Source of the DNA: Luteibacter sp. dw_328
GTDB taxonomy: Bacteria; Pseudomonadota; Gammaproteobacteria; Xanthomonadales; Rhodanobacteraceae
Length of the DNA stretch: 64,000 nucleotides
Direction: 5' to 3'
Assembly: GCF_018449605.1 (NCBI RefSeq)
Contig: NZ_JAAVUW010000001.1
Location: 310,001-374,000, forward strand
Numbering within the stretch: position 1 is the first letter of the stretch; each line of letters opens with the position of its first letter. This document shows, piece after piece, positions 3,522 through 9,503 of this stretch. The position numbers were made by a program, and so were the translations under genes. The notes under the pieces were generated by a model. The model worked only from the letters and a program-made list of their open reading frames with translations, did no database searches and was not told where the DNA came from.

Positions 3522-4631
3522 ATGAAGATCGTCTTCGCCAACCAACTGCGAGCGGTCGCCGCGCTGTCGGTTGTGCTGAACCACTACTGGGGTATCTTCT
3601 TCGTGCCGGCCGTGCGCGCGATCGTCGGCGTGCCAGCGCGTTTCGTCGTGGAGCAACCGGCATATACGCGGCACGTGTTGTCGCCCGGGGCGGGCGGCTT
3701 TCTCTACGGCGCCTTCGGCGTTGGCGTGTTCTTCCTCATAAGCGGTTTCGTCATCCCGATCAGCCTCAGGCATCTGTCGGCGGGGCAATTCCTGGTGCGC
3801 CGGTTCTTTCGCATCTATCCCGTCTACTGGTTCTGTCTGCTAATCAGCCTCGCCCTGTACGTGGTGAGTTCGAGGTACTGGTCGACGCCGCTGTCGGGCA
3901 GGGTGAGCCTGTCGTTCGTGGCAGAAAATCTCCCGCTGCTTCACAGCGCGGTAGGCATACCGTCGCTGGACTTCGTCTGCTGGTCGTTGGCGGTGGAAGT
4001 AAAGTTCTACGTTGTCCTGGCCGTGATCTTCATGCTCGGAACGAGTGCGCACAAGGTGGTCATGCTTTGCGTGGGTTTCCTGGCTTTGGCTTGCCTTGCC
4101 ACCTACATCACCACGCATGGACAGTATCCGGATTCCGTCTTCTCGTACCTGGTATCCGACATGAAATACATGAGTTTCATGTTCCTCGGCTGCCTGTTCT
4201 ATTTTGTTCTTTACGGCGAGCTCGACGCGCGGTCGGCCATGGGTTACGGGGTGCTTATCTTTGGCCTGTTCGTCACGATCGGCTCGTTCCATGAAAGGGC
4301 GATTTTCGGGCCGCTGGTCAGGAACTACACGTACGCGCTCGTCCTTTTCTGGGCGTGCTATCTGCGCCGGAGTCGATTCAGGAAGAACAGGATCCTCGAC
4401 TTCCTGGCGGACATCAGCTTCCCGCTTTACCTGGTTCATTCGATGATCGGATACGTGACCATGCCGATCCTGATCGACCACGGCGTGCCCTACACATTGT
4501 CCTGGCTCGCGTGCGCGGCTTTGTCGGTGCTTGTCGCGTGTCTTGTCCATAAGTACGTCGAGTTGCCCGTCAATGCCTTCGGAAAGTCCACCTCAGAGGC
4601 CCTTGACCGCGGCATCCCGGCACGTATTTGA
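3522..4631 (+). CDS. Acyltransferase family 3 membrane protein
   Basis: This is a polytopic inner-membrane protein of 369 residues with about ten hydrophobic segments. The N-terminus matches acyltransferase_3 (OafA/ExoZ/NodX type): NQLRAVAALSVVLNHYW with the characteristic His, then GVGVFFLISGFVIPISLRH and a basic RFFRIYPVYW loop. A second signature, DISFPLYLVHSMIGYV, lies near the C-terminus. Family members move acetyl or other acyl groups onto exported polysaccharides or lipids; the acceptor here is unknown. The gene is monocistronic, between a REP element and the leader region of the TonB receptor. The ATG at 3522 places the first conserved motif at residue 7. Confidence 0.88.
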   Translation: MKIVFANQLRAVAALSVVLNHYWGIFFVPAVRAIVGVPARFVVEQPAYTRHVLSPGAGGFLYGAFGVGVFFLISGFVIPISLRHLSAGQFLVRRFFRIYPVYWFCLLISLALYVVSSRYWSTPLSGRVSLSFVAENLPLLHSAVGIPSLDFVCWSLAVEVKFYVVLAVIFMLGTSAHKVVMLCVGFLALACLATYITTHGQYPDSVFSYLVSDMKYMSFMFLGCLFYFVLYGELDARSAMGYGVLIFGLFVTIGSFHERAIFGPLVRNYTYALVLFWACYLRRSRFRKNRILDFLADISFPLYLVHSMIGYVTMPILIDHGVPYTLSWLACAALSVLVACLVHKYVELPVNAFGKSTSEALDRGIPARI

Positions 4632-4717
4632 CATTCGTAACTTCCTGAAGCAGCATGTGACAAGGTTCGGACATCTAAACGTCCCATCCCCTGGACACAT
4701 CGCGAGGCAACACCATC

Positions 4718-4801
4718 TTGATCCCGCAGCAGCTCACCAACACGCATTCCATGGCCATCGCCCCGTCGATCGCTGCGTGTTGTTGTTGCCGTACTGCCTG
4801 A
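4718..4801 (+). CDS. Putative cysteine-run leader peptide (uORF)
   Basis: A very short ORF sits in the 297-bp gap before the TonB receptor. From ATG 4751 it reads MAIAPSIAACCCCRTA and stops at 4799-4801. An in-frame TTG at 4718, preceded by GAGG at 4704-4707, would add 11 residues. Four consecutive Cys codons (TGT TGT TGT TGC) just before the stop are what one expects of a leader peptide whose translation senses cysteinyl-tRNA supply. The receptor's neighbours (flavin monooxygenase of the sulfonate/sulfone class) fit a sulfur-responsive role. Translation and attenuation are inference; only the ORF, its codons and its position are seen. Confidence 0.5.
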   Translation: MIPQQLTNTHSMAIAPSIAACCCCRTA

Positions 4802-4828
4802 TCCGCCAGTGCTGAAGCGCTGAGCCGG

Positions 4829-4845
4829 GCCGCCACCAAGGCGGC
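4829..4845 (+). promoter_or_regulatory. Hairpin downstream of the leader peptide
   Basis: GCCGCC-ACCAA-GGCGGC forms a six-pair stem 28 bases after the leader peptide stop and 84 bases before the receptor ATG. It has no U-tract, so it is not a classic intrinsic terminator. It could be part of an attenuator or a sequestering structure together with the flanking GAGCC/GGCTC alternatives. Function is inferred from position only. Confidence 0.3.
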
Positions 4846-4928
4846 TCTCGTTCGCTGATTCCACTCGCCTTTCGCGGCTAACTTGCCGCGTCGTTACGGC
4901 GTTGCCTGCAAAAACGAAGGAATATCCC

Positions 4929-7325
4929 ATGAGGCATCCCCAGCCCTCACGCGCTGCCCTGTCCGTGCTGATCGCGGCTGCCCTGTACGCCCACGCTGCC
5001 CAAGCCCAGGACAAACCCAGCGGCGATGCCGGCGATTCGGCCACGAAATTGCAGACGGTCGTGGTCACCGGCACCCGCTCGGTAAATCGTAGCCAGAGCA
5101 GCTCCCTGTCGCCGATCGACGTCGTCTCCTCGCAGGATCTCCAGTCCTTCGGCGATACCCAGCTTGGCGCGGTGCTGTCGCGTCTGGCCCCGTCGCTCAA
5201 CTTCCCCCGCGCCCCGGGCAACGATGGTTCGGGCATTGTCCGGCCGGCCGCGCTGCGCGGTCTTTCGCCCGATGAGACCCTGGTGCTGGTCAACGGGAAG
5301 CGCTGGCATACGGGCGCCCTGCTGAACCTGCAGGGCGCGCTTGGCCGGGGCTCAGCGCCTGCCGATCTCAATTCCATTCCGATCTCGGCGATCGACCACA
5401 TCGAGATCCTTCGCGACGGTGCATCCGCGCAATACGGTTCGGATGCCATCGCCGGTGTGATCAACATCGTTCTGAAGGGCGCTGCGGGGCCGGGTAGCAA
5501 CGAAGCCAGTGTCACGGCGGGGCGATACAGCGCGGGCGATGGAAAGCAGTGGCAGGGTGAGGCGAGCCTGGGTGTGCCGCTCGGAGGCAACAAGGGCTGG
5601 GCACGCCTGAGCGTGGTCGATGGGCATGCCGATGCGACCGACCGGGGAGGACGCGACTTCCGCGACCCCACGTCGCCTGTGTACGGGCAACGCACGCAGC
5701 GTATCGGTGAGCCGGACATCACCACTCACCAGGCTTTGTTGAACGTGCAGTACGCGCTGGCGTCGAACGTGGACTTCTACGCCTTCGCGGACACAAGCAG
5801 CCGTGAAGGAACGTCGCCCGCACTCTTTCGCACGTACAACAGCTCGCGCAATGTGCCGTCCATTTATCCGGACGGCTACCTGCCGCTCAACGACGTGCGC
5901 TCGATCGACAGTGCGGTCGTCGCCGGCGTTCGCGGTACGACAGACAACGGTTGGCGATGGGATATCAGCGGCAACTACGGTCGCAACCGGGTGAGCATCG
6001 ACCCGATCCATACGCTCAACGTCGACCTGGGCGCGGCCAGTCCCACGCAGTTCAATGCGGGTCGGCTTATCGCGACACAGAAAGCGTTCGACGTCGATAT
6101 CGCGCGCGATCTCACGCTGGGCTGGTTGGACAACCCGGTGACGCTAGCCTTTGGCGTGGAGTACCTGCATCAGGAATACGAGATCGAGCCGGGCGACCCG
6201 GCGTCGTATTTCGGTACGGGCTCGCAGGGATTTCCGGGCTTCCAGCCGGGCGACGCAGGCAAGCACACGCGGCATGACGTGGCCGAGTACCTGAGCCTGG
6301 AAAACCAGATCACGGACAAGCTCAGCGGCTCGCTGGCCTTGCGCCACGAGGACTATACGGACTTCGGCAACACGACATCCGGCACGTTATCGGCGCGCTA
6401 CGACTTCACCGATAGCTTCGCGCTTCGCGGTACGGCGGCCACCGGCTTTCGCGCGCCGTCCTTGCCACAGCAGTTCTATTCGACGACGTCGACCAACGTG
6501 ATCGGTGGCGTGCCGACGCAGATCCGCAACTTCGCGGTGAACGATCCGGTCGCACAGGCACTTGGCGCCGAGCCGCTGAAGGCGGAGAAGTCGCACAACT
6601 ACACCTTGGGCGCGGTGTACGCGCCAGGCGCGTGGACGCTGTCGCTGGACCTCTACCAGATCACCATTGGCGATCGTATCGTTCCCTCCGAAAACCTTGT
6701 CGGCGATCAGGTGCAAGGATTCCTCGAGAGCCGGGGCTTCTCGAACATCCAGGGTGGCAGTTATTTCACCAACGCCCTGAAGACGCGAACGCGTGGCGTG
6801 GACTTCAGCAGTGGCTATCGTCTCGACCTCGGAACGGCCGGAACACTGCAGTTCACTGCCGCGTACAATCGCAACCACACGTCGATCCTTTCCGTGGCGC
6901 CCAATCCGCCGCAGCTCGCGGCGAACGGCCTCGAGTTGGTGCGCGTGGGGCATATTGCGCAGGGTTACATCACGAACGGCGCGCCACGCGACAAGATTGC
7001 GCTGGGAACGGATTACGGTCTCGGCCATTGGAACTTCCATGGCGCGTTGACTCGCTATGGCCAATTCACCGTCAATCAGGATCCGGTCAGTAATCCCGGT
7101 TTCGACCAGGTGTTCCCCGCGCGTTGGCTGCTGGACCTGTCGGGCAGCTATGCGCTTCAGGGCTGGACCTTCACCGCAGGCGTCGACAACCTCACCAACG
7201 TCTATCCGCAGAAGTACAAGGCCGGAAGCGACGGTGCCGTGGGAGGCACCTGGCCGTATCCGGACTATTCCCCCTTCGGCTATAGCGGCAGGTATCTGTA
7301 CACGAGGGTCAGCTATCGCTGGTGA
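4929..7325 (+). CDS. TonB-dependent outer-membrane receptor
   Basis: This outer-membrane active transporter has about 798 residues. A signal peptide ends at AHAAQAQ, followed by a TonB-box-like LQTVVVTGTR, a plug domain (RGLSPDETLVLVNGKRWH, EILRDGASAQYGSDAIAGVINIVLK) and a long beta-barrel ending in the aromatic strand YLYTRVSYRW. Start chosen at ATG 4929 with GAAGGA eight bases upstream; a longer frame exists but would precede the signal peptide. The substrate cannot be read from sequence. The Cys-run leader upstream and the convergent ATP-grasp/flavin monooxygenase operon suggest an organosulfur compound or other nutrient. The 3' end overlaps the convergent monooxygenase by 17 bp. Confidence 0.93.
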   Translation: MRHPQPSRAALSVLIAAALYAHAAQAQDKPSGDAGDSATKLQTVVVTGTRSVNRSQSSSLSPIDVVSSQDLQSFGDTQLGAVLSRLAPSLNFPRAPGNDGSGIVRPAALRGLSPDETLVLVNGKRWHTGALLNLQGALGRGSAPADLNSIPISAIDHIEILRDGASAQYGSDAIAGVINIVLKGAAGPGSNEASVTAGRYSAGDGKQWQGEASLGVPLGGNKGWARLSVVDGHADATDRGGRDFRDPTSPVYGQRTQRIGEPDITTHQALLNVQYALASNVDFYAFADTSSREGTSPALFRTYNSSRNVPSIYPDGYLPLNDVRSIDSAVVAGVRGTTDNGWRWDISGNYGRNRVSIDPIHTLNVDLGAASPTQFNAGRLIATQKAFDVDIARDLTLGWLDNPVTLAFGVEYLHQEYEIEPGDPASYFGTGSQGFPGFQPGDAGKHTRHDVAEYLSLENQITDKLSGSLALRHEDYTDFGNTTSGTLSARYDFTDSFALRGTAATGFRAPSLPQQFYSTTSTNVIGGVPTQIRNFAVNDPVAQALGAEPLKAEKSHNYTLGAVYAPGAWTLSLDLYQITIGDRIVPSENLVGDQVQGFLESRGFSNIQGGSYFTNALKTRTRGVDFSSGYRLDLGTAGTLQFTAAYNRNHTSILSVAPNPPQLAANGLELVRVGHIAQGYITNGAPRDKIALGTDYGLGHWNFHGALTRYGQFTVNQDPVSNPGFDQVFPARWLLDLSGSYALQGWTFTAGVDNLTNVYPQKYKAGSDGAVGGTWPYPDYSPFGYSGRYLYTRVSYRW

Positions 7326-8340
7326 CCTGGATCACCTGCCGCGAGAAGCGTTCCATCTCCTCCAGCTGCGGGCTCATCTGCAACAACAGCAGATCAAGGC
7401 CCGCGGCGGAGAATTCGGCGATACGGGCGCGTACCTGCGCTGGCGTACCGACCAGCCCGGGACGCAGGCCACGGTTGGAAACCGAGTATTCCTTGATCTT
7501 CAGCTCGCGCTCGAGCTGCGTTCCTGAGAGCCACTGGTCGAAGTTGGCAAAGCCGGGCGCCTCGGTATCCAATGCCGTGATGCGCTCGACCTCGGCCAGC
7601 GCCTCTTCCTCGGTGTCGCGCACGATCGCATAGGCGGCCATGCCGTACTGCATCGGCGGCTGGCCATTGCGCTCCCTCCGGGCACGCATGTCGGCGATCT
7701 TCTCGGCAATGAACGCCGGCTCGTCGCCGTGCATGACATAAGCATCGCAGCGTTCGGCGATAAGCGTCTTGGCGGCCTCGGATTCCCCGCCGGCATAGAT
7801 GGTCGGCCGTGGTGACGAGAGCGGCTTCGGCTCGCAGATGGCGTCCTTCAGCTGGTATCGCTCACCGGTGAAAGTGAAGGGGGTTTGCGACCAGAGACCA
7901 TCGATCACCTGCAGCCACTCGTTGGTGCGCGCGTAACGGTCGTCGTGCTGGTCGAATTGCAGGCCGTACTGGTTGGCTTCGTCCGCCCACCAGGAGGAGA
8001 CGACGTTCAGCGCAAGCCGTCCGCCGGAGATGCGGTCGATATTGGCAGCCTGCTTGGCGAAGAGGGCCGGCTGGTGAAAGTTGGGGCGCACCGCCACCAT
8101 GATCTCGAGCTTCTTTGTGACGGCTGCCAGGGCCGCCGCACTCGACCAGGCGTCGAGCGCGGGCTCAGTGACGCCTTTGATGTCGTTGAGGTTCAATTCG
8201 GCGATGAGTGTGAGGTCATAGCCGATCTCCTCGGCGCGTAGACACAGCCGGCTGAGGTACTCCCAGCTCGCCTCCATGTTCTCGTCGCGGATGTTGCGTA
8301 GCCATCCGCCGAAGACAGGCGCCCAGAATCCGTACCTCAT
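7309..8340 (-). CDS. LLM-class flavin-dependent monooxygenase (SfnG/SsuD/RutA-like)
   Basis: This is a 343-residue bacterial-luciferase-type TIM-barrel enzyme that would use reduced FMN and oxygen. It begins MRYGFWAPVFGGWLR. Family motifs include VAVRPNFHQPALFAKQAANID, ISGGRLALNVVSSWW, the PTIYAGGESEAA phosphate-binding loop and a C-terminal LVGTPAQVRARI. Close relatives oxidise alkanesulfonates, dimethyl sulfone or pyrimidine rings; the exact substrate is not decidable here. Start ATG 8340 overlaps the ATP-grasp stop as ATGA, so the two are translationally coupled. The gene converges on and overlaps the TonB receptor, and no reductase is adjacent, so a separate FMN reductase must serve it. 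Confidence 0.88.
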   Translation of the reverse strand: MRYGFWAPVFGGWLRNIRDENMEASWEYLSRLCLRAEEIGYDLTLIAELNLNDIKGVTEPALDAWSSAAALAAVTKKLEIMVAVRPNFHQPALFAKQAANIDRISGGRLALNVVSSWWADEANQYGLQFDQHDDRYARTNEWLQVIDGLWSQTPFTFTGERYQLKDAICEPKPLSSPRPTIYAGGESEAAKTLIAERCDAYVMHGDEPAFIAEKIADMRARRERNGQPPMQYGMAAYAIVRDTEEEALAEVERITALDTEAPGFANFDQWLSGTQLERELKIKEYSVSNRGLRPGLVGTPAQVRARIAEFSAAGLDLLLLQMSPQLEEMERFSRQVIQVTSDS

Positions 8341-9266
8341 GCTGCTTTCCCCGTAGTGGCTTGGATGGCGTGGGACAGGTAGTCGACCAGTTTCTCGTGG
8401 GGATCCCATCCCAACACGTTGATCGGATCTGCCACGAAATTGGAAAGACCGTTGATGTCGTAGAACCGGCGCACGCCGTCGCGGTCGTCGATCATGAACT
8501 CGATGCCGCCGATGTCCAGCTTCGCGGCGCGCGCGATGGCCTCGGCGGCACGTATCGCTTCGGCATCGGGTTTGAATTCGCTCACGGTGACGGTCGGCTT
8601 GTCGATCAGGCAGACATCGGCGGGGCACAGATCGAAGGTGCCGCCATCGGTGTTGAGTGAAATGGCGTAAAGGAACTTGCCGTCGAGGGTTTCCATGCGA
8701 ACCATGCGCTGGTCGCGCGCCGGCACGTATTCCTGCACCAGGGTGACGCTGTCGATACCCCTGGGTGTGGTCCCGTTGGCGACGGCATGTTCGAGTTCTT
8801 CCCGCGTGTCGTAGCGCGACACGCCAGCGCCTGATCCGCCGATATTCACCTTGACGATGACGGGGAAGCGAAGCCCCCGGGTGGCCGCGACGATATCAGC
8901 CTGACGGTGGACGACGTGCGTGGCGGGGATATCCAGACCGAGCGACTTGATCACCGACATCTGCCGCGCCTTGGACGCATCGATGGCGAGGGAAGGTGTG
9001 CCGTTGATCACCCGTGCGCCGTTTAATTCCCAATGCGCATAGAGCGACTGGGCATAAAAGATGGGGTGTTCGTCCTGCCGCAGGAAGGAGCTCATTGCCA
9101 GGCGGCTGAATACCAGTGGGGCCGGAGCGGCTTTCTCGGCGATATCGAACCCATGATCCTCGAAGCGTATGGCCTGGTAAGCCACGCCGCGGCGGTCGAG
9201 CGCGGAGAAAAGCGGTTTGAACCATTCGGGGTGTTCGTAAACGATCGCCAGGGAGGGTGCGGACAT
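8337..9266 (-). CDS. ATP-grasp ligase (RimK-like)
   Basis: The 309-residue protein has an ATP-grasp fold: an N-terminal variable domain, then FPVIVKVNIGGSGAGVSR (ATP lysine and glycine loop), LVQEYVPARDQRMVRMETLDGKFLYAI, and the metal-binding stretch GGIEFMIDDRDGVRRFYDINGLSNFV. Such enzymes join a carboxylate to an amine, as RimK and other amino-acid ligases do. Pairing with a flavin monooxygenase suggests ligation of an amino acid to, or processing of, an imported compound that is then oxidised; this is inference. It is the first gene of the minus-strand operon, with a perfect palindrome at 9280-9297 just upstream. Confidence 0.85.
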   Translation of the reverse strand: MSAPSLAIVYEHPEWFKPLFSALDRRGVAYQAIRFEDHGFDIAEKAAPAPLVFSRLAMSSFLRQDEHPIFYAQSLYAHWELNGARVINGTPSLAIDASKARQMSVIKSLGLDIPATHVVHRQADIVAATRGLRFPVIVKVNIGGSGAGVSRYDTREELEHAVANGTTPRGIDSVTLVQEYVPARDQRMVRMETLDGKFLYAISLNTDGGTFDLCPADVCLIDKPTVTVSEFKPDAEAIRAAEAIARAAKLDIGGIEFMIDDRDGVRRFYDINGLSNFVADPINVLGWDPHEKLVDYLSHAIQATTGKAA

Positions 9267-9297: not shown

Positions 9298-9503
9298 GAT
9301 TTCCCATGGTGCGTGATCAAAGTCAAGTGAAGATGGCAGTATGGACGTCTTAAAGTCCACACGAAGTCTCGCCGTGACGGTCGTCGCTTTGTTCATGCGA
9401 TCGCTTTCGTCCCCGGAATCAGGCGTTTCGTCCCCAGGCACTGGCACGCGGCCTCGCAAGGTAAGAAAGTGCGAATCGGGTCAGGGTTAAGGGACGGGCG
9501 CGC
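9298..9503. other. Intergenic region between divergent operons
   Basis: About 200 bp between the ATP-grasp operon (minus) and the serine hydrolase (plus). It holds the possible minus-strand promoter and two copies of TTTCGTCCCC about 21 bases apart near 9404-9440, of unknown meaning. No coding frame with convincing features was found. Confidence 0.4.

Follow-up and report, generated by a model that had tools for sequence, protein, structure and literature searches.

A cysteine-codon leader ORF and MetJ-like boxes in front of a TonB-dependent receptor gene of Luteibacter suggest two-level control by sulfur amino acids

Attenuators of the trp, his and leu type are characterized by a leader ORF with a run of codons for the regulated amino acid and by a hairpin which overlaps this ORF. 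For cysteine, short poly-cysteine ORFs of mycobacteria reportedly act as cysteine-responsive attenuators, as described by Canestrari et al. in 2020. In these mycobacterial attenuators a ribosome-binding site is masked, in place of which the Luteibacter locus described here has a C-rich spacer. The cysteine response of the mycobacterial short ORFs is treated in PMC9094748, and PMC13236596 names a paper on it in its reference list. A different system is CruR of Bordetella pertussis, encoded by the upstream ORF of bfrG. According to the sections of PMC9426467 used here, this DUF2946 protein with CXXC and RAPP motifs senses copper, and its control involves arrest and Rho-dependent termination. At the level of initiation, MetJ is treated in excerpts of PMC4239095 and PMC5343134. 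The former describes MetJ in six gamma-proteobacterial groups, with btuB, coding for a component of the B12 transporter, as a core target, and reports SamR, not MetJ, for its four Xanthomonadales genomes.

We analyzed a stretch of 64,000 nucleotides (the window) from the 5.05 Mb genome of Luteibacter sp. dw_328, in which a short ORF with clustered cysteine codons lies in front of a gene for a TonB-dependent receptor (Table 1). With the mycobacterial poly-cysteine ORFs it has in common the cysteine run directly upstream of the gene and cysteine supply as the proposed signal. It differs from them by its host, which belongs to another phylum, by a Shine-Dalgarno-like sequence in 12/15 orthologs, by a start codon which the predicted promoter would place about 50 nt into the RNA, whereas the mycobacterial ORFs are leaderless, and by the MetJ-like boxes in front and the TonB receptor downstream. 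An upstream ORF with cysteines before a gene for a TonB-dependent transporter is shared with CruR, as far as described in PMC9426467, but the Luteibacter leaders have only 25-33 codons, with clustered cysteine codons and no RAPP motif, and a role of Rho, part of the CruR mechanism, would be suggested here by an excess of C over G in 15/15 orthologs. The short ORF, the clustered cysteine codons and the ORF-overlapping hairpin correspond to the trp, his and leu attenuators, and the ORF and its codon cluster are conserved in 15/15 orthologs; a pair of intrinsic terminator and antiterminator, in contrast, was not found (terminators were scanned for in the window). Control by MetJ plus leader resembles TrpR plus trp attenuation in its logic only. 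The mycobacterial short ORFs are the closest system in signal and CruR is the closest in architecture. Among the matches listed from the open-licence literature, no cysteine leader peptide of Proteobacteria was found.

Table 1. Features at the receptor locus (positions within the window).
Feature	Position	Strand	Remarks
Predicted promoter	4628..4656	+	TTGACA (4628-4633), 17 nt, CAGCAT (4651-4656; weak -10); conserved in orthologs
Two tandem MetJ-like boxes, GGACATCT-AAACGTCC	4669..4684	+	12/16 to AGACGTCT x2; just after promoter
Shine-Dalgarno AGG of leader ORF	4705..4707	+	AGG or GGAG before start in 12/15
Leader ORF, 27 codons, LIPQQLTNTHSMAIAPSIAACCCCRTA	4718..4801	+	TTG start, TGA stop; similar ORF in 15/15 orthologs
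ORF-internal hairpin, CAACACGCA / TGCGTGTTG plus inner stem	4738..4782	+	First Cys codons in 3' arm
Four consecutive Cys codons, TGT TGT TGT TGC	4778..4789	+	3-5 Cys at matching place in 15/15
C-over-G-rich untranslated stretch, leader stop to receptor start	4802..4928	+	Candidate Rho-loading region; GC hairpin 4829-4845
TonB-dependent receptor (Plug + beta-barrel)	4929..7325	+	Pfam PF07715, PF00593
Luciferase-like flavin monooxygenase	7309..8340	-	SfnG/SsuD-like, below cut-offs; convergent with receptor
RimK-like ATP-grasp protein	8337..9266	-	In front of monooxygenase; Pfam PF08443
MetJ-like boxes upstream of RimK-monooxygenase genes	9335..9358	-	11/16 in two registers

Orthologs of the receptor were identified in 15 of 23 Luteibacter genomes, that of the window included; the other 14 show 84-95% identity. 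Close orthologs occur in seven named Luteibacter records, e.g., L. jiangsuensis, L. anthropi and L. yeojuensis. The remaining eight genomes hold at best receptor homologs of about 54% or less, and no leader ORF was found in them. All 15 ortholog loci, read in the same orientation, carry a leader ORF of 25-33 codons, which ends in clustered cysteine codons 99-203 nt before the receptor start. In the window CCCC is encoded just before the leader stop, which is separated by 127 nt from the receptor ATG (4929). Examples of the endings are AACCCCRTA, GACCCCRLA, VACRCCRS, VAACCCCCRA, QACCRCMA and ASCLCCRR; the cysteine run is uninterrupted in 8/15 leaders and broken by Arg, Gly or Leu in 7/15. At the aligned start, the position of 4718, the 15 loci have TTG, ATG or GTG. 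A preliminary description of this DNA had named the ORF, the four cysteine codons, the gap of 127 nt and a hairpin behind the ORF, and all of these are present in the sequence, the hairpin as a GC hairpin after the stop. Of the range of 16 to 27 codons given there, the 27-codon version with TTG agrees with the aligned start, but the 16-codon reading from ATG 4751 was rejected, as this ATG is absent from the two nearest relatives. Conservation in related genomes had been proposed as a check on the idea: the short ORF and its cysteine codons are kept in 15/15 Luteibacter orthologs, whereas no credible counterpart from other genera is among the matches listed. In two genomes the receptor gene contains an internal stop while the leader is intact (TAG in G021, locus L035; TGA in G017, locus L045, where the contig also ends early).

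The cysteine codons of the 15 leaders comprise 43 TGT and 15 TGC, versus 7:40 in 18 genes of the window. In seven close pairs of leaders, differences at the three codon positions amount to 33, 27 and 18, with no excess at the third position, so the leader peptide as such is not protected. Conservation is limited to the clustered cysteines, the hairpin inside the ORF and the TGT codon, which is rare elsewhere; the rest of the peptide is not conserved.

In front of the leader, TTGACA is followed by an NAGCAT hexamer at a spacing of 17 nt in 14/15 and 18 nt in 1/15 orthologs. A scan for consensus promoters reported none at 4628-4656 because the -10 hexamer is poor. Tandem 8-bp boxes similar to AGACGTCT near a promoter, together with a MetJ protein, are also found in the gamma-proteobacterial MetJ regulon as far as described in PMC4239095. 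The best MetJ-like 16-mer upstream of the receptor agrees in 11-14 of 16 positions in 15/15 orthologs (11 in two); the background per position is 1.8e-4 for at least 11 and 5e-5 for at least 12, the receptor boxes themselves included. A 16-mer with at least 11 also precedes 13/15 other receptors (9 in L057 and L060). When a pattern was built from the receptor boxes, two perfect matches were obtained in the genome, one at the receptor and the other ahead of a metX-like gene, where it is part of a tandem array. With one mismatch allowed, 34 matches stand against 31 for the reversed control, which is the chance level, and therefore only the perfect sites and their conservation carry weight. The genome of the window encodes a MetJ-family protein (PF01340, 130.8 bits versus a cut-off of 25), and MetJ was identified in 22 of 23 Luteibacter genomes, missing from G007, which is 80% complete. 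Binding of MetJ at the receptor boxes may thus be proposed from the sequence.

Of 117 sampled genomes of the host family, 116 encode MetJ, which extends the distribution described in the portions of PMC4239095 used here. It was also found in some genomes of families f9 and f12 of the order, but family f2 had it in 0/13, a pattern suggestive of loss or transfer. The MetJ of the window's genome (L121, G000:C2:194736-194990, minus strand) continues past its normal end in a long lysine/alanine-rich tail similar to histone H1, within an open frame of 234 codons. MetJ matches of the same family mostly lie in open frames of 126-399 codons, compared to 98-143 in family f9. At L092 (1484-1666) a tandem MetJ-like array is followed by a SAM riboswitch (RF00162) and the metX-like gene, i.e., two SAM sensors in series; the name metX is a reading of the sequence with no profile match behind it.

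We consider it probable that the receptor is under two-level control by sulfur amino acids, with MetJ and S-adenosylmethionine acting on initiation and a cysteine-responsive leader acting by attenuation that is probably Rho-dependent. MetJ with S-adenosylmethionine would repress the receptor promoter, and transcripts that do start would carry the leader ORF with its late cluster of rare cysteine codons. If Cys-tRNA is ample, the ribosome would finish the leader and leave, and Rho could act on the C-rich, G-poor RNA and terminate transcription either ahead of the receptor gene or within it. If cysteine is scarce, the ribosome would stall on the cysteine codons and either shield the RNA or remain in contact with the polymerase, which would allow synthesis of the receptor. 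The hairpin inside the ORF probably serves as a pause site for the polymerase and gives the ribosome time to catch up. The direction of control, in which lack of cysteine would raise expression, is taken from the logic of known leader peptides. In this scheme the reading of the leader as a cysteine attenuator has a good probability of its own, and cysteine-dependent control of the leader, the central idea of the preliminary description, thus appears likely from the sequence. For the Rho step the balance is about even.

The step between leader and receptor was analyzed in the spacer RNA. Behind the ORF the excess of C over G is above zero in 15/15 orthologs, with a mean of +0.171 versus a background of 0.000 (sd 0.065). 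The window, at +0.071, is the weakest of the 15 and still in the top 14%; before other receptors the excess is mostly lower, up to 0.133. An intrinsic terminator with a U-run was not found on the plus strand of the window at 4500-5100, and Rfam gave only one chance match over the same region (sraL, E 0.92, below gathering). In a folding model of the 15 orthologs, accessibility of the receptor start has the same mean of 0.50 in every state: in free RNA and with a ribosome masking the first Cys codon, the last Cys codon or the stop. Masking of the first Cys codon gives a higher value than free RNA in 10/15, mostly by little, and masking of the last Cys codon gives a higher value than masking of the stop in 5/15. 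For the hairpin arm that a stall would free, no common partner and no consistent alternative pairing were predicted in the 15 sequences. A pairing of the cysteine codons with the receptor start, drawn by RNAalifold from seven post-leader regions, is broken in several rows and was rejected. With mean accessibility unchanged and no consistent alternative pairing, the predicted folds do not explain how a stall would help. Taken together, the missing U-run terminator, the flat accessibility, the missing common partner and the excess of C favour Rho-dependent termination, opposed by a ribosome on the cysteine codons.

The same results bear on a switch in which the stalled ribosome frees the ribosome-binding site of the receptor, i.e., translational control, or leads to an antiterminator. 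Unmasking of the ribosome-binding site is the mechanism of the mycobacterial poly-cysteine ORFs, which counts for such a switch, as do the GC-rich hairpins that the folded sequences show between ORF and receptor. However, masking of the cysteine region barely alters the predicted accessibility of the start, the freed arm has no common partner in the 15 sequences, and a U-run terminator is missing on the plus strand of the window. Classical attenuation by terminator and antiterminator is not supported by these results, and a switch of either kind is rather unlikely, although it is the strongest of the alternatives to the Rho-dependent attenuator.

It might also be assumed that the RNA hairpin itself is the conserved element and that the cysteine codons are a by-product of base pairing without any sensing of cysteine. 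In the conserved stem CAACACGC pairs with GCGTGTTG, and an inner stem is added; the first two codons of the cysteine cluster lie inside the hairpin. Over the alignment 87.4% of the cells are paired, compared to 24.8-50.4% in slid controls. The covariation score is 0.224 versus 0.122 after shuffling, with values as high in 0/500 shuffles, and cells changed on both sides of a pair number 20 versus 8.3; these figures support the stem, although the structure was drawn from the same sequences that were tested, and relatedness among the rows can by itself lift such values above those of shuffles. Pairs with change on both sides (5 versus 4.0) and further pair types (14 versus 12.1) show no clear excess over the shuffles. 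The arm is paired in 15/15 predicted ensembles of the free RNA, with a mean probability of 0.58-1.00. The lack of a third-position excess in the peptide also fits a conserved RNA. However, all 15 leaders have 1-3 more cysteine codons past the stem, and base pairing alone does not explain these. They show the same TGT bias, with a TGT:TGC ratio of 20:10 versus 7:40 in the 18 window genes (Fisher p 6e-6, a guide only, as the rows are related). In addition, in the alignment of the 15 leaders the gaps within the ORF all have lengths divisible by three and a start codon is kept, and AGG or GGAG precedes the start in most of them, but the trimmed alignment used for the hairpin has gaps of 1 nt in two rows (L042, L045). 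A hairpin without cysteine sensing therefore seems improbable, and the cysteine attenuator, with the hairpin as part of it, is preferred.

The neighbourhood of the receptor gives indications of its possible role. A link to sulfur had been suggested from the flavin monooxygenase, but this clue proved weak: the gene is convergent with the receptor, reaches 228.7 bits against the SfnG cut-off of 382.95, and occurs together with the RimK-like gene in only 3 of 23 Luteibacter genomes, so it cannot explain the leader. Support for a link to sulfur amino acids comes from features that had not been foreseen, the MetJ-like boxes and, in a minority of genomes, metH in the neighbourhood. The link to MetJ, which is absent from the preliminary description, is stronger than that to the monooxygenase. 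In 5/15 orthologs (L137, L139, L140, L143, L144) a gene for an ArsR-methyltransferase protein lies close by, here called samR-like after SamR in the portions of PMC4239095 used; metH genes were called in 4 of these 5 loci, with domains checked in L143. MetJ-like 16-mers are also located before the RimK-monooxygenase pair, with 11 positions in the window and 11 and 13 in the other two genomes, at the same place, just before TTGACTTTG. From these boxes in three genomes it is plausible that the pair and the receptor share control by MetJ.

For the substrate of the receptor, import of a sulfur compound may be proposed. The closest sequence matches in the PDB are receptors for siderophores, colicin I and vitamin B12, all of them distant. 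The receptor is not BtuB by NCBIfam score (96.1 versus 599.7 bits), in contrast to the btuB target of the MetJ regulon as far as described in PMC4239095. Five cobalamin riboswitches were identified in the genome of the window, none of them in a search of 4500-5100. Homologs of about 54% in other genera (L177, L180, L149) are located beside cobalamin synthesis genes and have MetJ-like boxes without the Cys leader. Because such homologs adjoin cobalamin genes in some genomes, a B12-type substrate remains conceivable, and for that branch it is possible. In Pseudomonas sp. JUb42 (L174, 6920-16696) the genes downstream of a 47% homolog code for a polar amino-acid ABC transporter with solute-binding protein, permeases and ATPase; a luciferase-like monooxygenase gene lies about 3 kb upstream of this homolog.

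The nascent cysteine-rich peptide could also bind a metal such as copper and report this metal instead of cysteine, in the manner of CruR, which is likewise encoded ahead of a TonB receptor and whose action involves Rho according to the sections of PMC9426467 used here. However, the Luteibacter leaders have only 25-33 residues, the RAPP motif occurs in 0/15 and a long hydrophobic stretch, judged by eye, in 0/15, and both the minority neighbourhood and the MetJ-like boxes speak for sulfur amino acids. Sensing of a metal is thus quite improbable at this locus.

The distribution of the leader was analyzed with a profile of the 15 peptides. One strong site (E 6e-8 or better) was obtained in each Luteibacter genome with the ortholog, and no further site better than E 0.02 in any of the 23 genomes. 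No credible match from the other 210 genomes of the family or from a sample of 369 genomes of the class was among the matches listed. Of the weak matches listed, ten came from other genera, with E 0.001-0.02, and eight from the class sample, with E 3e-4 to 0.009; they were rejected because their scores were low, their starts were late or missing and a fitting downstream gene was lacking. All 18 stretches, two of which (L131, L186, on cut contigs) are probably misplaced, fall within an open frame of 202-1019 codons or are located opposite one, which is not decisive against them because the window ORF shares this trait; 6/18 have at least three Cys in four codons. Conservation of the leader thus appears restricted to Luteibacter, without reaching other genera. 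In a tree, the 15 leader-bearing receptors form one side of a single branch with a support of 100/100, so that one origin of the leader is the simplest reading.

To estimate the chance level, ORFs of up to 60 codons with at least three Cys in four codons were counted within 450 nt upstream. Such ORFs occur in the sense strand of 15/15 ortholog upstream regions, which are related and hence not 15 independent trials, and in the antisense strand of 0/15. They were found in 1.7% of dinucleotide shuffles and in 1/15 upstream regions of other homologous receptors (antisense 1/15). When both strands of twenty loci were divided into 1716 consecutive pieces of 450 nt, 50 pieces contained such an ORF, with most leaders among them. 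A further ORF of 24 codons in the genome of the window (L025, about 1440-1540) ends in EARCCCRL and is located 19 nt upstream of a dehydrogenase-like ORF. This genome has 54 CCCR matches; 30 were inspected, and none apart from the window ORF was convincing. A chance ORF without function is very improbable: poly-cysteine frames are not rare in GC-rich DNA (the 54 CCCR matches compare with 92 for a reversed control pattern) and the window ORF lies opposite an open frame of 411 codons, as is common in such DNA, but the ORF occurs in 15/15 orthologs versus about 1.7% expected and was kept while the surrounding leader diverged.

The complete picture combines initiation governed by MetJ, a cysteine-counting leader with Rho-dependent elongation, a single origin inside Luteibacter and the first cysteine attenuator outside mycobacteria found in the literature searched. 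As a whole it is tentative and falls slightly short of an even chance. If it is true, ribosome-based cysteine sensing would have arisen independently in gamma-proteobacteria, layered on a methionine repressor, and its young origin could be placed on a tree. The substrate of the orphan TonB receptor should then be a source of sulfur amino acids or a cofactor of methionine synthesis. The fifteen divergent natural leaders would provide material on how many cysteine codons, and which hairpin, are needed.
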